A stretch of 64,000 bases of DNA, taken from NCBI RefSeq assembly GCF_016735695.1, contig NZ_JAERQD010000016.1:1-64000 (forward strand). Direction: 5' to 3'. This document shows positions 4,912 to 59,279 of this stretch, piece after piece (position 1 is the stretch's first letter; each line of letters opens with the position of its first letter). Origin of the DNA: Microvirga zambiensis WSM3693 (GTDB lineage Bacteria; Pseudomonadota; Alphaproteobacteria; Rhizobiales; Beijerinckiaceae). The position numbers and the translations under genes were made by a program. The notes under the pieces are model-generated. The model was not told the DNA's origin. It saw only the letters and a list, made by a program, of their open reading frames with translations, and did not search any database.

Positions 4912-6888
4912 TCATGCGACGCCGATCGCGACCGGCCCGCGAGAGGCCCCTGTCGCCTCCGCACGGGCGAGCTGCACACTTAGGGCCACCGCCTCGCGCA
5001 GGGTCGTGGCGACGAGATCCGCCCGGGCCGCCTCGCGCAGCGCCACGGCCGCCGCAGCGTCCATTCCCTCGACCCAGCATCCCAGAAGGATCCGCGCCCG
5101 CGGCATCTTGCGGCGCAGGCGACGCACGGCATAGCGCATGTGGGCCGGGCTGCCCGCATCGAGATAGGACAGGCACACCATGGCGATGCCGGCGTCGTCG
5201 ATCCTCGCAACGGCCTGGACCGACAGGGAGGCTGCGCTTTCCACCCGCGCCTTGAGGCCGTGCTTGGTCAGCACTTGCGCCAGCATCAGGGCAGCGGCCT
5301 CGTCGACCGGGCTCTGGCCGGCAATGCACAGGATCGGCGTCTCGCCCTGGAAGCGCGGGTCGAGATCCTCCGGTACCAGAGTCGGAAGACCGGCCGTGCC
5401 GCTCCCGTCCGCGCTAGCCTCGACGGCGGCGGCCGCCTCCGGATCGTCCGTGCGGCCGGATTCCGGCTCCTGGTCGGGGTGATCGGACAGGTCGTCCACG
5501 AGCTCCTCGACCGTATCCCGCACCCGCTCCAGGCGGGCTTCGTCCAGCACGCCGCGCAGCGCGTCGGCACGGGCGAGCCGCAGGCCGGCCAGGGCCACCT
5601 CGTCGTAGTACACCGAAAGCGAGCGCTCCTTCAGGAATTCCTCCGCGACGTCGGCGGCCTCCGCCGGGTCGCCGGCGAGCATGCGCTGGTAGAAGATCTC
5701 CGGCGGCGACAGGGCGGGACGGTCGCCGAGCATGACGTCGAGGAACTCGAGCTGCTCCACGTGCCGGCCGAGGACGACCAGGCACACCGTCAGCGGGGTT
5801 GCCAGCACCAGTCCGATCGGGCCCCAGAGCCAGGTCCAGAAGGTCGCCGAGACGACGACGGCCACCGGGGACAGCCCGGTGCTGTGGCCGTAGACGAGCG
5901 GTTCGACCACATGACCTGCAATCGGCTCGACGACGATGAACAGGGCGGCGGTCATCAGCAGCATCGACCAGCCGGGATCGACGGCCGCCGCCAGGGCGAG
6001 CGGGAAGGCGGCGGAGATGAAGGCGCCGATGTACGGCACGAAGCGCAGGATCGCGGCGAGGATGCCCCACAGAACCGGGCTCGGTACGCCGATGAAGAAC
6101 AGGCCGATGCCGATCACCACGCCGAAGGCGGCGTTGAGCGCCAACTGCGTCAGGAACAGCTTGCTCAGGCGCCTGGCGGCGTCGTCGAGGGCGGCAGTGG
6201 TCTTCTGGAGGTCGTGCGAGCCGGCGAGGCGGATCAGGCGGTTCCGCAAATCCTCCCGTTGCAGCAGGATGAAGATCACGAAGATGATCACGATGCCGGT
6301 GGTCGCGGCAGGGTGGATGAGCGGCGTGATGAAGGCGCCGAGAGTTTGCAGCGCGCCCGGGTCGGGCTGGCGCACCTCGACCGGGATGGGCTTCGTCTCT
6401 GTCGCCGGCACGGAGTTCGGCGTCAGCGGATTGGCCGGCGGTGATGTTCCGGCGTGCGGCCTGTCGAGTTCCTTGCCGAGGTCCTGCAACACGTCCGCAG
6501 CCCGTTCGAGGGCGCTGCTGCCGGCAGCAGACCCGCGCAGCGACTGCACTTTCTCGCGCATGGTAGCCTGGTATCGCGGCAGGTCCCCGGCGAGCTGGGT
6601 CACCTGTGTCGCCATCACGGTGGCGAGTGCCGTGATGCCGGCGAAAGCCACCAGCACGACGCCGACGACGGCCAGAGCCCGAGGGACATGCGCCTTCTGC
6701 AAAAGCCTGATCAGGGGAGCCAGCACGAAGCTCAGGAGGATGGCGAGCGCCACCGGGACGAAGACCTCGCGACCGACGTACAGGGCCGCGATGATGAGCG
6801 CCGTCATGCCGACGATGCCGAGGCCGGCGGACGCGGGACCCGAGGGGAGGATGTCCCGCTCGGCGATCTTCGGTTTCAGGTCCGGCAT
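4912..6888 (-). CDS. AI-2E/PerM-family transporter with cytosolic C-terminal extension
   Basis: An inner-membrane protein of the AI-2E exporter (PerM) superfamily; substrates range from autoinducers to Na+/H+ exchange, so the cargo is unknown. Residues 20-85 hold paired helices (VGMTALIIAALYVGREVFVP, FVLAPLIRLLQKAHVPRALA), a periplasmic loop follows, and residues 205-400 hold the rest, with LRFVPYIGAFISAAFP and GHVVEPLVYG as family signatures. Usual members have about 350-400 residues; this one has 658. The extra 250 residues include an acidic linker and a globular part (ILCIAGQSPVDEAAALML to RILLGCWVEGMD) resembling a cobalamin-binding-like alpha/beta fold. The ATG at 6888 was chosen over an earlier in-frame start at 7098 because the added 70 residues are Arg/Pro-rich and unlike any leader. 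Confidence 0.85.
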   Translation of the reverse strand: MPDLKPKIAERDILPSGPASAGLGIVGMTALIIAALYVGREVFVPVALAILLSFVLAPLIRLLQKAHVPRALAVVGVVLVAFAGITALATVMATQVTQLAGDLPRYQATMREKVQSLRGSAAGSSALERAADVLQDLGKELDRPHAGTSPPANPLTPNSVPATETKPIPVEVRQPDPGALQTLGAFITPLIHPAATTGIVIIFVIFILLQREDLRNRLIRLAGSHDLQKTTAALDDAARRLSKLFLTQLALNAAFGVVIGIGLFFIGVPSPVLWGILAAILRFVPYIGAFISAAFPLALAAAVDPGWSMLLMTAALFIVVEPIAGHVVEPLVYGHSTGLSPVAVVVSATFWTWLWGPIGLVLATPLTVCLVVLGRHVEQLEFLDVMLGDRPALSPPEIFYQRMLAGDPAEAADVAEEFLKERSLSVYYDEVALAGLRLARADALRGVLDEARLERVRDTVEELVDDLSDHPDQEPESGRTDDPEAAAAVEASADGSGTAGLPTLVPEDLDPRFQGETPILCIAGQSPVDEAAALMLAQVLTKHGLKARVESAASLSVQAVARIDDAGIAMVCLSYLDAGSPAHMRYAVRRLRRKMPRARILLGCWVEGMDAAAAVALREAARADLVATTLREAVALSVQLARAEATGASRGPVAIGVA

Positions 6889-10592: not shown

Positions 10593-10997
10593 CGCAGCCA
10601 GGTGCGTCCTGCCAAGAGGGCCAGCGGAAACGCGATCCTTCCCGCAGGCGGCCGATCGCGCTGGGCAAATCCCGCTCGGCCGCTGCGTCGATGACGTCCA
10701 CTTCCTGAAGTGCGTGGAGCTGAGGTTTCCGACGGTTGTCCAGGCCCGACGTCCGCAAGGGCAGTGTGAAGCGGACCTCTGCGCGACCACGTCTTAAGAC
10801 TGTCCGCGACCCGAACCAGACGTCAGTTTGACCATAGAGGAACGAGCAACACCAATCTCCCGCGGAGGAGGTTGAGATATCAGTCAGTAACGAATGCCGC
10901 AGGCCCGTTCCGGAACGCTCGCCAACCTTGGGGGTTCCAATCCTTGCGCGCCCGGCATCCCTACAGACAAGGCCGTGCCGACCCCCAGGAGATAGCG
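10593..10997. other. Gene-free stretch
   Basis: Upstream flank of the transporter pair and 3' flank of the PAS gene. Frames on both strands are short and without family resemblance. No strong hairpin was seen. The last 15 bases carry the caggagatagcg leader of the MFS gene. Confidence 0.5.
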
Positions 10998-13516: not shown

Positions 13517-13660
13517 CGTATGCTGTCAAGGACGAAGCCTACCAATCTATTCCGAAACAATGGTCCAATGTTCAGGGGGCAGGGAGAGACAGGACGAAAG
13601 ATTGCGCTGCTCCAGCCCGACCGATACCCATGGCCCATGCAGAGGAAGGTCGGCTCCTGG

Positions 13661-13745
13661 TATTCCCCGGACCAAAGAGCCTGGTCCGCTTCAGCGGAGT
13701 AATGCCGACGTTCATTGAGCAGCCGGAACGTGAAAATATAACCCA
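13661..13745 (+). repeat. Dispersed intergenic repeat, copy A
   Basis: One of four related intergenic stretches. This copy runs from tattccccggaccaaagagc through tggtccgcttcagcgg, gccgacgttcatt and gccggaacgtga to a final aaccc. The same ordered blocks occur at 40347, at 59114 and partly at 39561. Confidence 0.65.
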
Positions 13746-13755
13746 ATCCGGACTT

Positions 13756-13785
13756 CGATGATTCTGGCTTTTGTCAGAATCATCG
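13756..13785. terminator. Hairpin between converging genes
   Basis: cgatgattctg and cagaatcatcg form a perfect 11-bp stem around an eight-base loop (gcttttgt). It lies between the 3' ends of the plus-strand SLC13 gene and the minus-strand aldolase gene, where a bidirectional terminator is expected. There is no T tract on either side, so it may only protect mRNA ends. Confidence 0.55.
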
Positions 13786-13826
13786 CTGTAGTCCGCTTTT
13801 GGGTCGAGTCGTGAGGCCACAAATAG

Positions 13827-22623: not shown

Positions 22624-22988
22624 GACTTACCGCTATGCAAAATGAGAAAATCTCATGTTATATGAAAATAAATCTTGGAGCTACCCCAATGGAGCTTCGA
22701 CAATCGGTATGCCCCCGCAACGTCTGGGACGGAGTGGGCGAAACCCGTCACCACCTGACCTCCACTGATCTGAGCCGATCAAGGTTGCTGTTCCCTGACG
22801 TCGTACAAGACATGAACAGGCCATCGCACCCTTTCCAGTCGTCCATGGTTACGGTGCAGAAGCCGATGCGCTCAGGCCGAGCCGCCGTGGTCGTCTCATG
22901 GCAGATCTGGGACCAAAGGCCCTGGTCAGGTTAGAGGCTTGAAGCAGACATCCAGAAGGGCTGAGGATCTCCCCTGCGTTTGTCTACA
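22624..22988. other. Gene-free stretch
   Basis: The first 60 bases next to the LysR start are AT-rich (aaaatctcatgttatatg) and likely carry its promoter. The rest shows no recognisable gene on either strand and borders the integrase relic. Confidence 0.5.
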
Positions 22989-37610: not shown

Positions 37611-38242
37611 ATGTCCCTTGGACGTCCCCGAGACCACGCATCGAACCGGGCCTATTCGTCCGGTTTCGTCAGGCCAGCCGTGGAGACAGGTAAAGCGAGG
37701 GCTCCATCGAGAGAAACACAGGTCGATCCCGTGGCACCTTCACGCTGCAAGTAGACGTAGCCGGTCTGCCGTCACGGCAGGACCATGTCGCGCTTGTTGT
37801 CGAGGACGAAGTCCCCCGGTCGGTTCACGCTATCAGGACCGCATGCGGGTCGCCATCTTTATCGATGACGGCTGTCATGCCCGTCGGGACAACCCGGAGG
37901 AACCGAGGCGCTTGCGCTTGACGAGCCGGTGATCCTCGCAGTCTGCATAGCCGTCCCCCGCAAAGTCCCAGTGCTCGACATCAGTGATGGGAGTGATCGA
38001 GACGTCACTCGACGCGTAACCCGGTTGAGTGTGTCCCAAACGAGCGGCGTGAGGAGCTGCGGCTTTCGGGATCGACTCGCATTGAACAATATTCGTATTC
38101 CTGCACAAACCAGAAAACAGACAGCACTCGATGCGTTGAAGACGTAGCCCGGCATGATCTTTCCCTCGGTCCGGTGCTGTTCTGCGACGCTGTTCGACGC
38201 TCCGGCGTCAACCAGATTTAGTTCCGGGCTCCGTTCTGGGCT
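37611..38242. other. Gene-free stretch
   Basis: About 630 bases downstream of glgX and of the cyclase gene, which converge here. Minus-strand frames include short hydrophobic or acidic pieces (a VLSVFWFVQEYEYCSM stretch and a DFAGDGYADCEDH stretch) in different phases, which may be scraps of a small exported protein, but I cannot establish a gene. No repeat copy was found here. Confidence 0.45.
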
Positions 38243-39445
38243 TTATCTCGAGGTCAGTCCTTGGTCGTCCCTAATCCTTCGGTCCGGTGCGATCAGTTCG
38301 AAGACCGTCTGCTCGTCCGGGATCCCTGGCAGCGTGAACGTTCCAAGCCGCCGGGTGGTGTCGGTCGGAAAGCATGCTGCGACCTCCCGGGAACAAACCG
38401 CGGTGGAGTTTGTGCTCTTGGCGACCGCCTCCAGCCGGCTGACAAAGTTGACCGTGGGGCCCACGACCGTGAAGTCCAGCCGGTCCGGGCTGCCGATGTT
38501 GCCATAGATCACAGGGCCAACGTGCAAGCAGCCGACAAAGTGCATCCCTGCGATCGACTCGGCGTCGATCAAGGCCGCTTCCAAGGCCCGACGCGCGCGA
38601 GTGCTCGCCGTCTCCCGTCCGCCGCCCTCAACCGGAAAGATGGCAAGGACGCCGTCGCCGATGAACTTCAGCACATCCCCGCCCTCGGCTCGAACCGCGG
38701 TGACCACCAGTTCCTGGTACTGGCCAAGGCGCTCCAGGAGTGCATTGGGAGGCAACTGCTCCGAGAGAAATGTGTACCCGCGCAGATCGGTCAGCAACAC
38801 GGCGGCTTCGATCGCAACCTGATCACCGCGCCGGATAGCGCCAGCGGCAATGCGCTCGGCCGGACCATCGCCAAGGTAGGTTCGCAGAAGGCTCTCGGCA
38901 GACCGGCGCATTGCGGCAGGTTCGAGCGCTGCTGCCAGGAACGGGCTAAGCCTCTCGATCAGCGCGATGGCTTCGTGACTGAACCCGCCTGGAGCATCGG
39001 TGGTGAAGGCGGCTCCCTGGACAGAGCCATCCCCATAGATGATCGGCAGGGCCAGGTAGTCGGTGCTGCCATCCTCAGCAAGCTCGAACAGCACCGGATG
39101 GTCACGGGCGGGATTGAGATCGCGCAGGGAGCGGTAAAAGCGGGTCCGCGTCTTAATGACATGCTCGAAGGGGCTGCCGGTGAAGGCGCTTGTCGCCAGG
39201 ACACGGCGGGGGACGGTGTACTCTTCGGCTCCCGTTTCGCGCATCCAGATCACTCCCCAGGCTCCGAGCAGAGGATTGATCAGCCGCTGCCCGACCCGCA
39301 CCCGCCAGAGCGGGATCCCTGTAGCGACGAGCCGGTCACAGGTTTGGGCAACGATCTCGACCGGGGAGAGAGCCACGCGTGCCGTGCCCACCAGCCAGGT
39401 GGCGACTTCGGTGACATTGAAATCGAGGAACCGCTGATGGGGCAT
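38243..39445 (-). CDS. Class III adenylate/guanylate cyclase
   Basis: A 400-residue protein. Residues 1-180 form a GAF-like or alphaproteobacterial-specific N-terminal domain (LVATGIPLWRVRVGQRLINP, then YRSLRDLNPARDHPVLFELA), often seen before soluble cyclases. The cyclase domain runs from about 205 to 380: AVLLTDLRGYTFLSE with the first metal Asp, KFIGDGVLAIFPV with the second and VGPTVNFVSRLEAVAK with Asn and Arg. There is no membrane helix. The ATG at 39445 was preferred over 39490 since the extra residues are not domain-like. It differs from the cyclase at 3924 by its N-terminal sensor. Confidence 0.88.
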   Translation of the reverse strand: MPHQRFLDFNVTEVATWLVGTARVALSPVEIVAQTCDRLVATGIPLWRVRVGQRLINPLLGAWGVIWMRETGAEEYTVPRRVLATSAFTGSPFEHVIKTRTRFYRSLRDLNPARDHPVLFELAEDGSTDYLALPIIYGDGSVQGAAFTTDAPGGFSHEAIALIERLSPFLAAALEPAAMRRSAESLLRTYLGDGPAERIAAGAIRRGDQVAIEAAVLLTDLRGYTFLSEQLPPNALLERLGQYQELVVTAVRAEGGDVLKFIGDGVLAIFPVEGGGRETASTRARRALEAALIDAESIAGMHFVGCLHVGPVIYGNIGSPDRLDFTVVGPTVNFVSRLEAVAKSTNSTAVCSREVAACFPTDTTRRLGTFTLPGIPDEQTVFELIAPDRRIRDDQGLTSR

Positions 39446-39560
39446 GGTGCATCCCACAGTGCGTTGCCGATACCGAAAGAATGCTGCCACTCGAGCGGGG
39501 CGCTCCGGATATTTATCCGGCCAGACCTGTCACGACACGACCCCGTCTAAGGGCAACTCC

Positions 39561-39620
39561 TGACACTTCTGAGACGTAAGAGCTTGGTCCGCTTCGAAGC
39601 CTGAGAGCCGACATGGGCCA
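39561..39620 (+). repeat. Dispersed intergenic repeat, copy D (partial)
   Basis: tgagacgtaagagcttggtc followed by cgcttcgaagc and gagccgacatgg matches the middle blocks of copies A, B and C. It is closest to copy C at 59114, sharing agacgtaag. The right blocks (gccggaacgtga, gacccc) are absent. Confidence 0.55.
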
Positions 39621-39693
39621 CCTCCGCTTCGGAGGCGCAGCTGCGGCCCGCATCCGTAACGAGCGGTAACCGCCACGAGTTTGCGCCAGACCC

Positions 39694-40116
39694 CTACGAC
39701 CCGGTCGGAATGCATCCGAGCTGCTGGAAAAGGCCGAGTCGGTCCAGCTCGACCCAGTCCTCCGTCAGCTTGCCGCCGGCGAAGCGGCCGATAATGAGAA
39801 CGGTCCAGGTCACGTTGCGACCGGACGCGGCAATCCCTTGCCATTCGCCCCGCTGGGTCGCCAGCCAGCGGCCTCGCCAGACGCCTCGGTCGCCAGCGAA
39901 GAACAGATCGTCCAAGGTATAGGCGGCGTCCGGAAAGGCGGCGAAGAAGCCTTCCATCGCCGCGCGCCAAGCCGGCAGGCCATGGATCGCCTCCATGCCC
40001 AGCCAGTTCGATGTCAGATCGTCATGCCAGTACTTCTCCAGGGCGTCCACACGGTGCCCGTTGAAGACCTCGTCAATGTAGGCGCGGATCAACGCCTCGT
40101 GCTGGTCTCCCGCCAT
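39694..40116 (-). CDS. SnoaL-like (NTF2-fold) ester cyclase family protein
   Basis: A 140-residue protein of the SnoaL-like polyketide-cyclase family (NTF2 fold); in most bacteria its reaction is unknown. It reads ALIRAYIDEVFNGHRVDALE, then YWHDDLTSNW, MEGFFAAFPDAAYTLDDLFF, GVWRGRWLATQRGEWQGIAA and a final HW-type strand replaced by KLTEDWVELDRLGLFQQLG. The ATG at 40116 follows GGAGGAGCAAGG, a strong ribosome site. It stands alone between the cyclase gene and the RpiR locus. Confidence 0.87.
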   Translation of the reverse strand: MAGDQHEALIRAYIDEVFNGHRVDALEKYWHDDLTSNWLGMEAIHGLPAWRAAMEGFFAAFPDAAYTLDDLFFAGDRGVWRGRWLATQRGEWQGIAASGRNVTWTVLIIGRFAGGKLTEDWVELDRLGLFQQLGCIPTGS

Positions 40117-40346
40117 GGTCCTTGCTCCTCCGGGTGCTGAAGGTCGACTGGCCCTTATAGTAGTCCAGCGCAAGCTGAGGTGCTCGGCGAGTACTGTCCC
40201 GACGGGAGGTGAGTGGCGCGATGCTCATGACGCATCTCCTCGAGCAAGTGGCGAGCGCCACGATTACTGCAGCTCGACTATACCGCATGATAGCGCGGAA
40301 TTTCGCCAAATGCATGGGTCGTCATAGGGCGAAAGGGCCGCGACAG

Positions 40347-40433
40347 GCATTCCCCGGACCAAGGCGTTCGGTCTGCTTTGGTGCTGAAGAGCCGATGCTC
40401 GTTGGATGGCCGGAACGTGACGCTTTGACCCCG
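40347..40433 (+). repeat. Dispersed intergenic repeat, copy B
   Basis: cattccccggaccaaggcgt, cggtctgctttggtgctgaag, gagccgatgctcgttgg and gccggaacgtgacgc followed by tttgacccc match copies A and C block by block with scattered substitutions. Confidence 0.65.
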
Positions 40434-40546
40434 ACCGGGCCTTCAATGCCGACGCAATCGTCCGCAAGAGATCCCGGCTCGACGTACCCAGGCGCTTGAC
40501 TGAATCGGTTCCGGCCTTGCCGTTGGAGGCGGTCGAGAGTTTGTGC

Positions 40547-40593
40547 TGCAATGCATATTGCAGCGATCTACGATTAATGCAATTATAGTTGCA
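40547..40593 (+). promoter_or_regulatory. Paired operator candidate for the RpiR regulator
   Basis: Two inverted repeats: TGCAATGCATATTGCA at 40547-40562 and TGCAATTATAGTTGCA at 40578-40593. Their centres are 31 bp apart, close to three helical turns, so a regulator tetramer could bind both on one face. They end 13 bases before the RpiR start codon. RpiR/MurR regulators bind such palindromes as dimers. Operator function is inferred from position and symmetry. Confidence 0.7.
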
Positions 40594-40606
40594 TAACAGG
40601 TGGCGC

Positions 40607-41440
40607 ATGGCACATTCACTTGCAAACCAGATCGACCGGTACCGGGACAAGCTCACCGAAGCGGACCAGCGGCTCCTGGACGTATTGCTCCGCGATCCAG
40701 GCCAGTCTGCGATGCTGTCCGCCGCCGAAGTGGCGCGCGAGGCGGGGGTGCATGCGGCTGCGGCGGTCCGGCTCGCCCAGAAGCTTGGCTACGAGGGCTA
40801 CCCGGACATGCGTTCGGCCCTGCGTTCCGAAATCGTCGCATCGGATTCCTCGCGCCGTATTGCCGAAACGCTTGCCGGTTCCGAGGGAGACTTGCTGGCG
40901 TCGCTGATTGCCAGCGAGGTCGATACCCTCCTCGGGCTGATTCAGCATATCGATCAGGCTGCCATCGAGGATGCAGCCAAGGCGATGCTGAAGGCCCGTA
41001 GCATCGCCCTTTGTGCGCAGGGCAACTCCGTCGTCCTTGCCGACCTTCTGGACCGGCGCCTGCGCCGCGCAGGATTCCGCACTTCTCTCATCACCGGGCA
41101 GGGCCGTGAACTCGCCGAGCGGCTCATCCCGCTCGGGCGGAATGACATGCTCGTCTGCTTTGCATTCCGTCGTCTGCCGCGGGAGGTCACCGGAGCGCTC
41201 GATCATGCCCGTCAGGTCGGCGCGACAACGCTCGTCATAGCCGATCATATCGCCCGGCGCCTTCCGCGCACTCCCGATCATGTGCTGGCCGCGCCACGCG
41301 GCCGGGCCGAGGAGTTTCTGACGCTCACGGTGCCGATGGCGATCTGCAACGCGCTTATTCTCACCATCGCGCGCATCGATGGCGGCCAGTCGGTGTCGAC
41401 GCTCGATGCGCTGGAGACCTTGATCAAACGCTTCGACTAA
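40607..41440 (+). CDS. RpiR/MurR-family transcriptional regulator
   Basis: A 277-residue regulator. Residues 1-80 are the RpiR helix-turn-helix (LTEADQRLLDVLLRDPGQSA, LSAAEVAREAGVHAAAAVRL, KLGYEGYPDMRSALRSEI). Residues 120-260 are a SIS domain (ARSIALCAQGNSVVLADLLD to ATTLVIADHIARRLP), which in this family binds phosphorylated sugars. That fits control of the downstream importer and phosphatase by a phosphosugar-like ligand. The ATG at 40607 follows an AGGTGG site. The promoter region holds two operator candidates, so it probably controls itself and the following genes. Confidence 0.93.
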   Translation: MAHSLANQIDRYRDKLTEADQRLLDVLLRDPGQSAMLSAAEVAREAGVHAAAAVRLAQKLGYEGYPDMRSALRSEIVASDSSRRIAETLAGSEGDLLASLIASEVDTLLGLIQHIDQAAIEDAAKAMLKARSIALCAQGNSVVLADLLDRRLRRAGFRTSLITGQGRELAERLIPLGRNDMLVCFAFRRLPREVTGALDHARQVGATTLVIADHIARRLPRTPDHVLAAPRGRAEEFLTLTVPMAICNALILTIARIDGGQSVSTLDALETLIKRFD

Positions 41441-41481
41441 CAACCAAGCAGCCGACAAGAGCTGCCAAAGAGGAGACGAAC

Positions 41482-42606
41482 ATGAAGACACGCAACTTCC
41501 TGGCGGCTTTTGCGATCGCCGCCTTGCTGCCTCTCGGCTCGGCCCAGGCCCAGAATCTCGAATCGATGACCGCAGCGGAGCTGCTGCCCCTTGCGCAGAA
41601 GGAAGGGAAGGTCACCGTCTATGCCTTCACCAGTCGCATCGCACAGATCGAGAAGGCCTTCGAAGCTGCCTATCCGGGGATCGATGTCGTACCGCTCGAC
41701 GTCTCATCCACCCAGATGATCGCGCGACTGAAGTCGGAAGCGCAGGCCGGCGTGGTCAATGCCGACGTCGCTTACGTTTCCGATGCGCCCGTCGTCTATA
41801 CGGAACTCGTCGCGAAAGGCATGCTCCTGCCCTACGTGCCGACCGATATCGCCGCTCGCGTGCCCGATGAGCACGAGAAGCCGCTTCTCGCCAACCGGCT
41901 CTCGACCAAGGTGCTCATGTACAATGAAGAGGCAAATCCGAGCGGTCCGCCTGTGCGCAATCTGTGGGAACTGACCAAGCCCGAGTGGAAGGGCAAGGTC
42001 GTGCTCGTCGATCCGAACCTGCGCGGCGACTATCTCGACTTCATGGCGGAAGTCGTGCTCCGTTCGTCCGATATGGAAAAGGCCTACCAGGCTGCGTTCG
42101 GCAAGCCGTTCGTGCTCGACAAAGCCAACAGGAATGCCGGCGAGCAGTGGATTGCAGCCTTGTGGGCGAATGGTCCCGTGCTGGTCAGGAATACGGACGC
42201 GGTCAATGATGCCGTCGGCAAGAAAGGGCAGGCCAATCCTCCGATTGGCATCACCACCTATTCCGACCGGCGCGACAATGCCAAGGAGAGCCGCGCTCTT
42301 CAGGTGGCGAACGCCGTCGAGCCGTCGCCCGGTATCCTGTTTCCGGCTTATCTCAGCGTCGTAAAGGGAACCAAGAACCCGGCAGCGGCGCGACTTCTGA
42401 TCCGCTTCATGATGGGCGACGATAGTCCAACGGGTGGTCCGGGCTTTGCGCCCTTCTACGTTCCGGGGGACTACGCCACGCGAACGGATATTCAGCAGCC
42501 CAAGGATGCGATCCCTCTCGATCAGTTCCGCGCCTGGCGTATGGACCCGATCAAGACGGCCGGTGTACGGCAGGACGTGTCCGACTTCATCCTGTCCCTG
42601 AAATGA
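41482..42606 (+). CDS. Fbp/Afu-type ABC substrate-binding protein
   Basis: A 374-residue periplasmic binding protein of the family first named for ferric iron. Signal peptide: about residues 1-23 (FAIAALLPLGSAQAQ). Mature features are EGKVTVYAFTSRIAQIEKAF, YPGIDVVPLD, DVAYVSDAP, LWELTKPEWKGKVVLVDP and the final PAAARLLIRFMMG. The adjacent Tyr pair that binds Fe3+ in FbpA is absent: no YY occurs anywhere. Relatives of this fold bind sugar phosphates (AfuA), phosphonates or polyamines. The linked phosphatase gene favours a phosphorylated ligand. A strong GAGGAGA site precedes the ATG, 41 bases after the regulator. Confidence 0.9.
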   Translation: MKTRNFLAAFAIAALLPLGSAQAQNLESMTAAELLPLAQKEGKVTVYAFTSRIAQIEKAFEAAYPGIDVVPLDVSSTQMIARLKSEAQAGVVNADVAYVSDAPVVYTELVAKGMLLPYVPTDIAARVPDEHEKPLLANRLSTKVLMYNEEANPSGPPVRNLWELTKPEWKGKVVLVDPNLRGDYLDFMAEVVLRSSDMEKAYQAAFGKPFVLDKANRNAGEQWIAALWANGPVLVRNTDAVNDAVGKKGQANPPIGITTYSDRRDNAKESRALQVANAVEPSPGILFPAYLSVVKGTKNPAAARLLIRFMMGDDSPTGGPGFAPFYVPGDYATRTDIQQPKDAIPLDQFRAWRMDPIKTAGVRQDVSDFILSLK

Positions 42607-47519: not shown

Positions 47520-49355
47520 ATGACGAGTTCGGCGGCACCGGCGCAGACCCCATCGAGCGTATCCTCGGCACGAGCCCTCGCAGGCCGCCTCTGGCATTCT
47601 TTCACCCAGCCCGAACGTCTTCTGGGTATCCTTCTCGCCATCGTGCTCGGCGCGCTGGTTCTCGTGCCGCTGTTCGAGCTGATCCGCGAGACCCTCACCG
47701 TTCAGCCCTATGATCGGGCCTATCTGCCCAAAGCGCAGCCGGGCGAGTTCACGCTGTTTCACTACGAGCGCGTCTTCGCCGGACGTCTCTCCTGGGCGAT
47801 CTTCTACAAGCCGTTCTTCAACTCGCTGGTCACGGCCTTTGCCGCCACCATTATCTGCCTTGCTTTCGGCGCGGGCTTCGCTTGGCTGATCGTGCGCACG
47901 AACATCCCGTTCCGGAATTTCCTGCACACACTGGTGATGATCCCCTACATGCTTCCGTCCTGGGTGATGGCGCTCGCCTGGATCACGTTCTTCAAGAACG
48001 ACCGTATCGGCGGGGCGTCCGGTGCGTTCGCCTATTTCTTCGGCGTGCAACCCCCGGACTGGATCGCCTATGGACCCATCCCGATCATCGTCTGCCTGTC
48101 GCTGCACTACTACGTCTATTCCTACCTCTCGGTGTCGAGCTCGATCACGAGCGTCGACAGCCAGCTCGAGGAGGCGGGGGCGATGGTTGGCCTCTCTCGC
48201 CTCAAGCAGTTCCTGTGGATCACCGCTCCGCTGCTGCTGCCCGCCATCGGTTCCGCGGTGGTGATGACCTTCATCCGCGTCGTCGGATCGTTCGGCACTC
48301 CCGCAGTACTCGGGATGCCGGTGCGCTATTACGTGCTGCCGACGCAGATCTATGCCGCGATGGGAACGCGCAATGCGGGCGACGGCTTCCTGCTGGCTCT
48401 GGTGCTCGTGGTTCTCGCCTGCCTGTTCATCTTCATCAACCAGCGCCTCATCGGCGTCCGCAAGAGCTTCGTGACACTCTCCGGCAAGGGTTTCCGCAGC
48501 AAGGAGATCGATCTCGGTCCCTGGCGCTGGCCGCTCTTCATTCTCGTCATGCTGCTCATGACGGCGGCGGTCGCATTCCCGCTGGTCCTGCTCGTCCTGC
48601 AATCCCTGATCAAGACCGCAGGCAATTACAGCCTCAGCAACCTGACCCTGCATTACTGGATCGGCGGGGGAGGCGAGGGCGTCGATCAGCTGCAGGCAGC
48701 TCTCGTCGACAACAGCAATATCATCGACGCCACCTGGAACAGCCTCAAGCTCGCGTTCCTCACGGCCATGACGACAGGCATCTTCGGCTTCCTCATCGGC
48801 TATGTGGTGGTCAGGACCCGCGGCTCGCTCACTTCGCGAGCGCTCGAGATGGTGGCCTTCCTGCCCTACATCTTTCCGGCTCTGGCCTTCGGCGCGATCT
48901 ATATCGGCATGTTCGCCCGTCCCTTCGGGCCGATCCCCGCCCTTTACGGCACTTTCGCGCTGCTCGTGCTGATCTGCTCGGTCAAGACGCTGCCTTTCAC
49001 ATCGCGTACCGGCATTGCGGCTCTGCTGCAGATCGACAAGTCGCTGGAGGAGGCCGCTCGAGTCCAAGGCATCGGCTGGGTCCGCCGCATGATCCGGATC
49101 ATCGTGCCCATCGCCGCCGGCGGGCTCCTCTCCGGCATGCTGCTGAGCTTCATCAGCATCATGCGCGAGCTGTCGCTCATCATTCTGCTCGTCACGCCTT
49201 CGACCAACGTGCTCGCAGGCGTCATCTACAACTACCAGAACCAGGATATGCCTCAGCTCGTCGGCGTCGCGACCGTACTGCTCGTCGCCATCGTGATTGC
49301 GGTCAACCTGGTCGTTCGTGCCTTGTCAACGAAGGCGAGGGTCGGAGCGGTCTGA
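47520..49355 (+). CDS. Fused double ABC permease, Fbp/Afu type (LacI locus)
   Basis: A 611-residue permease, paralogous to the one at 42628. Two halves each have an EAA loop: QLEEAGAMVGLSRLKQFLWI and SLEEAARVQGIGWVRRMIRI. It shares the linker SGKGFRSKEIDLGPWRWPL and the LHYWIGGGGEGVDQ loop with its neighbour, but carries a different substrate loop beyond. ATG at 47520 was chosen since the preceding 79 codons are leader-like and include the operator region. First gene of the LacI-controlled operon; the binding-protein gene follows after 43 bases, a reversed order relative to the RpiR locus. Confidence 0.9.
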   Translation: MTSSAAPAQTPSSVSSARALAGRLWHSFTQPERLLGILLAIVLGALVLVPLFELIRETLTVQPYDRAYLPKAQPGEFTLFHYERVFAGRLSWAIFYKPFFNSLVTAFAATIICLAFGAGFAWLIVRTNIPFRNFLHTLVMIPYMLPSWVMALAWITFFKNDRIGGASGAFAYFFGVQPPDWIAYGPIPIIVCLSLHYYVYSYLSVSSSITSVDSQLEEAGAMVGLSRLKQFLWITAPLLLPAIGSAVVMTFIRVVGSFGTPAVLGMPVRYYVLPTQIYAAMGTRNAGDGFLLALVLVVLACLFIFINQRLIGVRKSFVTLSGKGFRSKEIDLGPWRWPLFILVMLLMTAAVAFPLVLLVLQSLIKTAGNYSLSNLTLHYWIGGGGEGVDQLQAALVDNSNIIDATWNSLKLAFLTAMTTGIFGFLIGYVVVRTRGSLTSRALEMVAFLPYIFPALAFGAIYIGMFARPFGPIPALYGTFALLVLICSVKTLPFTSRTGIAALLQIDKSLEEAARVQGIGWVRRMIRIIVPIAAGGLLSGMLLSFISIMRELSLIILLVTPSTNVLAGVIYNYQNQDMPQLVGVATVLLVAIVIAVNLVVRALSTKARVGAV

Positions 49356-54357: not shown

Positions 54358-54640
54358 CAGGCTCCTTGGGTCATCTGAGGCCCTAATGAAGTGACCAGCT
54401 TGGCGAGCTTTCTCAGGTTATGGGCAGTGGCCGCCAACAGGAACTCGTCGTGAGCGCCGCATGGACCTCGCAGCCGCAGGCGTCCCATCTTCAGAATTCG
54501 CTTGATATGGGCAAACAGCCTCTCGATGCGCTTGCGATCTTGCCGTGACCGCCCGAAGGCCGACGTGCCTCTCAATGAGCGTGCGACCTCGCGGGGATGC
54601 TCGTAGATGCCGCGTGGGGTCTTACGGGCCGGCGGGCTAG
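54358..54640 (-). pseudogene. IS1182/IS5-like transposase, C-terminal fragment
   Basis: The minus strand reads KTPRGIYEHPREVARSLRGT, then RQDRKRIERLFAHIKRILKM, GRLRLRGPCGAHDEFLLAAT and AHNLRKLAKL. This is the C-terminal end of an IS1182-type DDE transposase, including the Glu of the R-x-x-V/I-E-x-L-F motif. The N-terminal half with the two Asp residues is missing. The frame continues back to an ATG at 54755 in unrelated sequence. It separates the phosphatase operon from the RND pump. Confidence 0.8.
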
Positions 54641-54840
54641 GAAGCTTCAGAGTTTGACCCGTTACTGACATTCGTCCGTCTGGACGGAGCCCTCGGCTGA
54701 CCGTGGCCCGAATTCTGCCCGTCTCAGGTGTTAGCTTGATTGTCAGTGTTGGCATGACCTAACCTCGCCGGAGCCTCCCGTAGTCTCAACGGGAGTAGAC
54801 GACCGGCGCAACGTTGATAGCGGCCGTGGGAGTGTGGTCC

Positions 54841-58900: not shown

Positions 58901-59103
58901 TGATCGCGGAAGGAGCCGCGGCCCTGAGCCGGCGCGGGGTGGGAACCTCGGTCTTCGGAGGCATGCTTTTCGCCTCGCTGCTTGGGATCTTCGTCATTCC
59001 GCCTCTGTACGTGGTGGTGCAGCGGACCCGGGAACGGCTGCGGGGAACGCCCGCTCCCAAGGCGGCCTCCAAGCCAGACCCAGTTCCGAAAGCCGCGGAA
59101 TGA
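55951..59103 (+). CDS. RND multidrug efflux pump, HAE1 family
   Basis: A 1050-residue proton-driven inner-membrane transporter. It has the family opening [20 protein letters not shown], the periplasmic porter segment, and the helix [20 protein letters not shown] whose Asp pair carries protons. The second half repeats the layout ([20 protein letters not shown], the matching Lys helix, and [18 protein letters not shown]). Length and order agree with AcrB/MexB-type pumps. Drugs, solvents or plant phenolics are possible cargo. A very long open frame in another phase (54834-58286) is chance. Confidence 0.95.
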
Positions 59104-59113
59104 CTGCACCTGG

Positions 59114-59198
59114 CATTCGTAAGACGTAAGCATTTGGTCCGCTTCGGTGCTTACGAGCCGACGTTTGGTGGGCAGTTGGAAGGTGACAGGTTAACCCC
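59114..59198 (+). repeat. Dispersed intergenic repeat, copy C
   Basis: cattcgtaagacgtaagcat, ttggtccgcttcggtgcttac and gagccgacgtttggtggg, then ttggaaggtgacagg and ttaacccc, line up with copies A and B. It begins eleven bases after the RND pump stop. Confidence 0.65.
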
Positions 59199-59279
59199 AC
59201 TCCAGACAATTAGAGTTAGCCAAACGTTGAAACGCCGGGGCGCCGCGTTCTCGAACGCTCGATCAGAAACTCGGGTCTC

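Follow-up and report, generated by a model that had tools for sequence, protein, structure and literature searches.

Integrons are the textbook case of gene-cassette mobility. Their attC sites, similar in size to the sites described here, carry inverted boxes and lie at the cassette borders, and group IIC introns insert beside them. dif-like sites are about 28 bp long and are bound by XerC and XerD. Beyond integrons and Xer modules, there are few known cassette systems that rely on site-specific recombination. Insertion sequences of the IS200/IS605 and IS91/ISCR families use a single-strand chemistry oriented by the replication fork, and IS91 has one fixed and one variable end.

For integron attC sites, it has been described that the folded bottom strand recombines and that its placement on the leading or lagging template matters (PMC5371416). 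Small, Xer-dependent gene modules located between recombination sites (pdif modules) occur on Acinetobacter plasmids, according to the available portions of two reports (PMC6449649, PMC12907356). Finally, Br-REP1 and Br-REP2 of Bradyrhizobium are presented, in the excerpt available, as intergenic palindromic repeats found in 3' untranslated regions (PMC5082802).

Like integrons, including CALINs, the sites that we describe in Microvirga delimit single-gene segments with exchangeable neighbors, by means of a variable site with inverted boxes at the borders. Unlike attC sites, they exchange at both edges, are scattered over whole replicons, and are accompanied by genes in either direction. pdif modules, in the portions available, are also small plasmid gene modules bounded by recombination sites; however, the short dif-like sites look unlike the 87-bp Microvirga core, and the replicon-wide polarity of the Microvirga sites is not part of those descriptions. 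A likely fork orientation is shared with the palindrome-associated elements derived from IS200/IS605 and with IS91/ISCR, and the combination of one fixed and one variable end with IS91, whereas the Microvirga sites exchange at both core edges and beside other sites, and no transposase was found with them. The two Br-REP families are palindromic intergenic repeats of Rhizobiales as well, but have other consensus sequences, and the excerpt describes neither cassette exchange nor replication polarity for them. No description of the present site was found in the titles and abstract starts of the open papers among the literature matches listed.

The window analyzed here is the whole stretch of 64,000 nucleotides of Microvirga zambiensis WSM3693 (NZ_JAERQD010000016.1, positions 1 to 64,000). 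An earlier note, made from the sequence alone, had reported an intergenic repeat of about 85 bases at four places, and the blocks that it described are present on the plus strand in all four. Three of the copies are full sites of one subfamily (A): 13643-13759, made up of a left box, an 87-bp core (13658-13744) and a right box; 40330-40446, with its core at about 40345-40431; and 59094-59214, which starts at the end of an AcrB-type gene. The fourth copy (39545-39614) is partial, as had been claimed, its core being cut after about 55 bp. The four copies are all real and belong to one subfamily, but the count is too low: a broader profile finds seven sites of at least 10 bits in the window, all on the plus strand and none on the minus strand. 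The additional ones are weaker and lie at 22889-22979 (35 bits), 10741-10827 (28 bits, left part unmatched), and 54634-54677 (12 bits, right part of the site only). The window sites are among the seeds of this profile, which was also seeded with differing sites from exchange junctions; on the same sequences reversed, it gives no match of 10 bits or more. The proposed length is close to that of the core but leaves out an inverted box of about 15 bp on each side, and the intergenic location holds for the window copies except that at 59094, whose left box reaches into the final codons of the AcrB-type gene that ends at 59103. The resemblance exceeds that of shuffled sequence for the three full copies, with pairwise local alignment scores of 54-66 against best scores per query of 32-42 in 40 dinucleotide-shuffled windows searched on both strands. 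It does so for the truncated copy (39559) with the 59109 copy (56), but not with the other two (34 and 26).

Across copies, the site consists of an 87-bp core (TGGCAC...TGACCC) placed between inverted boxes GGAANGTCNGC / GCNGACNTTCC of about 15 bp on each side. In the alignment of 79 near-full copies, the mean consensus frequency is 0.81 in the core and 0.56 and 0.57 at the ends; 13 of 85 copies, mostly weaker ones, were left out of the core alignment. The less conserved ends are inverted copies of GGAANGTCNGC, so that the inverted ends for which the earlier note had suggested looking are present in the consensus, and 6.5-6.7 of their 17 positions pair in register, compared with 3.1-4.6 out of register. 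Core length is narrowly distributed: of the 133 sites in which both motifs can be clearly seen, 127 have a core of 85-88 bp, and 86 have one of exactly 87 bp. The mean pairwise identity among copies is 61 percent, and many sites look decayed. A coding origin was considered and rejected: conservation is 0.82, 0.82, and 0.79 in the three codon phases, and stop codons interrupt all six frames, in between 24 and 73 of 78 copies depending on the frame.

Several models were used to search for further sites. The six-copy model, made from sequence only, has the three full copies of the earlier note among its seeds and thus finds them again by construction; an independent copy in the same genome is nevertheless found at E 3.5e-19. 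In this genome (7.36 Mb, 257 contigs), the model gives 24 matches at E up to 10, of which 17 are below 1e-3, seeds included. A general model, built on 53 of 64 listed sites and scored on up to 150 candidates per genome, yields at E 1e-3 at least 63 matches in the same genome, at least 65 in M. lotononidis, and at least 137 in Microvirga sp. VF16. A later profile recovers 208 unique sites in 2.35 Mb, a set drawn mostly from loci fetched for holding a site, and 81 of them fall outside the subfamily first seen; its control on reversed sequences gives 2 matches of 10 bits or more. A regular expression written for the site did not match the window copies. The repeat is real, and the site family extends well beyond the subfamily formed by the four copies first noticed.

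With the first model, 13 of 19 Microvirga genomes (including the one studied) match below 1e-10, three match weakly (E 0.004 to 0.07), and three have no match at E 0.1, and in the 12 genomes of other genera any match is weak (E 0.02 or more). When the core model was searched across the order under stricter filters (E 1e-4), our own was the sole genome of 397 to match. All named matches, that is, 4 of 4 genome-contig loci and 9 of 9 plasmid records, come from Microvirga, and no annotated feature lies beneath the best match in the nine plasmid records. One exact pattern searched in viral contigs gave no match, and in phages the most that turned up were 23-base matches at E 0.8. Across the class, the general model found sites in 21 of 385 genomes; besides our own, 20 genomes matched, the best of these at E 6e-10. 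Sites in these other genomes have AATGTCCGCT-form boxes around TGACCC, some with TGGCAC. At L312-L331 and L333-L340, from other alphaproteobacterial genera, the general site model picks up repeats built as AATGTCCGCTT...TGACCCAAAGCGGACATT, which probably belong to the same superfamily as the Microvirga sites. Within the window, a short stretch to the right of the first site (13786-13815, agtccgcttttgggtcgagtcg) resembles the boxes of this wider family.

What distinguishes these sites is the behavior of the DNA on either side of them. The truncated copy and the site at 40330 form the left edge and the right border, respectively, of a cassette-like segment (39560-40344) holding one SnoaL-type gene (39694-40173, minus strand), whose right neighbors differ in 6 of 6 genomes and left neighbors in 3 of 3. 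A second exchanged segment (38111-39560, left limit approximate) holds one gene with a cyclase domain (38243-39490, minus strand), and its right neighbors differ in 8 of 8 places in seven genomes. When the region 38200-41500 was searched against 48 Microvirga genomes, matches were found in 25, many of them ending at sites. At junction 40344, the 600 bp to the left are homologous in 15 of 15 pairs from six genomes (84-93 percent) and the right flank in none of the 15. At junction 39560, homology is found on the left in 28 of 28 pairs and on the right in 0 of 28 (eight places, seven genomes); examined by eye, the break falls just before TGGCAC in seven of the eight places and about 16 bases earlier in the remaining one. 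BLAST alignments overrun the break seen by eye by up to about 36 bases, since sites resemble one another where they begin. The 39561 site shows the converse at its left edge, with homology on the right side (3/3) and not on the left (0/3). Single-gene segments with exchangeable neighbors at a fixed place are found, as in integrons. No locus having both flanks without the site was seen, the flanks being unrelated segments. In some exchanges, identity up to the break is 94-99 percent, and these look recent.

The same behavior was sought among 175 unique sites of at least 20 bits spanning more than 70 columns. Among 52 pairs of sites sharing a flank, 34 share the left one only, 16 the right one only, 1 both, and 1 is of another kind; these pairs form about 20 groups of related loci, are not independent, and some were fetched for this homology. 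Of the 16 right-sharing alignments, 8 start between -11 and +2 of TGGCAC and 5 at 78-95, and among the 34 left-sharing ones, 11 end between -13 and +20, 4 at 52-61, and 9 at 86-107. Eight left-sharing alignments that end together at -219 to -238 reflect one gene family rather than the site. One-sided homology alone is weak evidence, because plasmid synteny between species is poor, and the weight of the exchange evidence is carried by the sharp position of the break.

These breaks bear on the idea that the sites are old intergenic palindromic repeats acting as passive hot spots, either as insertion sequence targets or as short homology for ordinary recombination. The divergence of the copies, their dispersal, their rarity within long ORFs (2 of 35), and the IS-like ends that abut some cores (see below) would all suit such repeats. 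But partner sites at one junction have strongly different middle parts, cores of different make-up share the same junction, and homology ends on the far side; together with a polarity that extends across whole replicon arms, this makes a passive role quite unlikely in our view.

The orientation of the sites is the second distinctive feature. Because GC skew was too weak to mark origins, rep and par genes were used. Taking parB/repB as the origin, setting the terminus half-way from it, and using for the general model the best 150 of 265 matches, 142 of 154 sites on nine replicons point with the fork. Among the matches listed, this is the case of 27/27 sites on the VF16 chromosome, 44/45 on its 1.39-Mb plasmid, and 5/7, 3/3, and 1/1 on three smaller VF16 plasmids, as well as of 6/6 on the M. 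lotononidis chromosome and 22/30 on its 1.13-Mb plasmid; with the broader profile, two fully read plasmids give 23/24 and 11/11. On two further M. ossetica plasmids, the narrower model gives 9/11 and 6/6. Six sites were left out of the orientation count, five on one M. lotononidis replicon (all on one strand) and one on a VF16 replicon. Nine replicons have sites on both strands, and on every one of them the strand changes from minus to plus exactly once. The switch interval contains parB/repB in seven of the nine and spans just 10.6 and 20.4 kb in two; on a VF16 plasmid, parB/repB is about 15 kb outside it. With repC, which lies elsewhere, as the origin, polarity fails on most plasmids (for example, 16 or 2 of 24, 8/11, and 6/30); the choice between the two markers was made after seeing both, parB/repB fitting and repC not. 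On the 1.13-Mb M. lotononidis plasmid, the sites change strand at 0.85-0.97 Mb rather than at the point half-way from repB, a position suggestive of an off-center terminus or a rearrangement. In the genome studied, site strand is uniform within each of five contigs (2, 4, 6, 4, and 3 sites among the matches listed).

Site orientation agrees with the replicon arm for 34 of 35 sites and with the ORF to the left for 21 of 35. Of the 86 genes annotated in four stretches rich in sites, 63 are oriented along the presumed fork, compared with the 34 of 35 sites on those plasmids; a control based on long ORFs, spurious ones included, gives 360 of 773. Uniform strand over long replicon arms is thus firmly established. 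The link of site strand to the fork is likely and depends on parB/repB marking the origin; if it does, we infer that the strand bearing TGGCAC is the lagging-strand template.

Such polarity, strong on chromosomes and plasmids alike, brings to mind polar DNA signals such as KOPS or Chi, which serve segregation or repair and have to point along the fork. We consider a role of this kind highly improbable, as the sites are long, diverged, and divided into subfamilies, three of the 19 genomes of the same genus had no match with the first model, and the exchange of segments would be left unexplained.

The position of 23 of 35 sites within 190 bp of a long ORF to the left, on either strand, could instead point to a functional RNA, a terminator, or a regulatory element selected near gene ends. 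The consensus alone does fold strongly on both strands (z -4.3 and -4.7), yet individual sites fold no better than shuffles, the mean z of 60 of the 170 sites taken from the above 175 for fold and motif tests being -0.34 on the plus strand and -0.47 on the minus strand, not significantly different from the -0.27 of control flanks. In permutation tests on 78 copies (one near-duplicate of the 79 having been dropped), no register exceeds z 2.2 in either direction and no stem covaries, and the window has no Rfam match at the gathering threshold. RNA structure, proposed at the outset as something to look for, is therefore not conserved: the consensus folds, but real copies behave like shuffles and show no compensatory change. 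As orientation, moreover, follows the replicon arm rather than the left ORF, an RNA or terminator role has very little to recommend it.

Integron-type enzymes and motifs were then considered. The integron integrase model TIGR02249 is over its cut-off in none of 48 Microvirga genomes, and the matches below cut-off, among those listed, cover only about positions 3-180 or 235-315 of the model. GTTRRRY/RYYYAAC motifs are found at the core edges of 6 of 170 sites, as against 4 of 170 control windows. In the stretches read, no consistent neighbor gene and no recombinase are tied to the sites. Two serine recombinase genes located 52 and 461 bp from sites on two plasmids were not retained as candidates, since relatives of these lie about 2 and 130 kb away, and no link is claimed. 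Two profiles were applied to integrase loci L301-L310: L308 alone has a clear site, scoring 30 and 36 bits, and in one of the profiles L307 scores 13 bits and L304 11 bits. Several of these loci pair a tyrosine recombinase of about 300-344 aa with an adjoining ORF of about 400 aa, which we take to be an IS91-type transposase. On NZ_CP016620.1, a gene for a group II intron reverse transcriptase (47785-49325) starts about 160 bp from a site. Integrase, attC motif, and fold having been tested with negative results, and nothing covarying, the sites are not classed as an integron.

IS-like ends abut the core in a few of the 170 sites, on the left in five cases and on the right in four. At L033, L039, L094, L113, and L147, a TTTTTCAAC-type sequence ending in AATCGGCAC abuts the left core edge, and L113 has IS-like inverted ends at both core edges. 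The core edges may be the target of an insertion sequence. Past the right core edge, L012, L054, and L104 have a common element, approximately ATGTATGGACCGGCCGTGCGTCGCAAGAG in L012 and L054 and diverged in L104.

A single-strand process has also to be weighed. On the M. ossetica plasmid NZ_CP016620.1, the sites at 5083, 39108, 392610, and 555581 belong to four copies of a unit made up of a gene end (of the RHE_PE00001 family where complete) and the core; these copies, 88-99 percent identical, have the same right edge and different left ends. This unit looks more like one-ended transposition and keeps alive a model of rolling-circle or other single-strand transposition. The sites would then be a small element moved by an HUH nuclease, derived from IS200/IS605 or one-ended as IS91, inserting in a fork-dependent orientation and carrying adjacent DNA with it. 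The strand polarity of the sites, the ORFs presumed to be of IS91 type beside integrase genes in the genus, and the IS-like ends at some cores agree with this. Set against them are breaks that fall on either edge of the core, time and again at one position beside another site, as well as the ordinary genes held by the two segments studied, and incidental reading of the surroundings tied no transposase to the sites. Overall, we regard such an element as unlikely.

The suggestions first made for the repeat, a non-autonomous mobile element, a REP-like element, or a degenerate transposon end, were right in pointing to something related to mobile elements. In their plain form, they are inadequate because it is the gene segments between sites that change partner, homology breaks off at either edge of the core, and sites keep one orientation along long arms of a replicon.

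Taken together, a family of related sites, shared breakpoints, one-sided homology, and a single strand over long arms are observed. The reading that we favor, with somewhat more confidence than doubt, is that the sites serve as attachment-like junctions in a dispersed, integron-like system of gene-cassette exchange. The pattern behaves as a cassette system does, with fixed segment borders, changing partners, and a fixed direction. Single-gene segments meet at the edges of the core, the clearest cases lying just before TGGCAC and others just after TGACCC, so that a given segment lies beside unrelated partners in different strains. A site-specific recombinase would carry out the exchanges, and the tyrosine type, known from integrons and Xer modules, is the most likely one. 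It would probably act on the strand that is single-stranded on the lagging template, and the orientation of the sites would follow from this. Against this reading stand the negative results of the searches for an enzyme and for a fold, breaks at both edges, unlike attC, and genes between sites that have no fixed direction.

A bolder proposal, which we put forward only tentatively and consider rather doubtful, is that of an undescribed class of cassette mobility. Its sites would be scattered over chromosomes and plasmids and point with the fork, their 87-bp cores would be unrelated to attC, its recombinase would act on one strand of the fork, and a four-box family (AATGTCCGCT...TGACCCAAAGCGGACATT) would carry it across Alphaproteobacteria.

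Should the exchange prove passive, the strand polarity of the sites would still need an explanation. If the favored reading is true, the identity of the moving enzyme would be directly testable from the site sequences, and a second cassette system, scattered and oriented by replication, would explain the gain and loss of single genes on large rhizobial plasmids.
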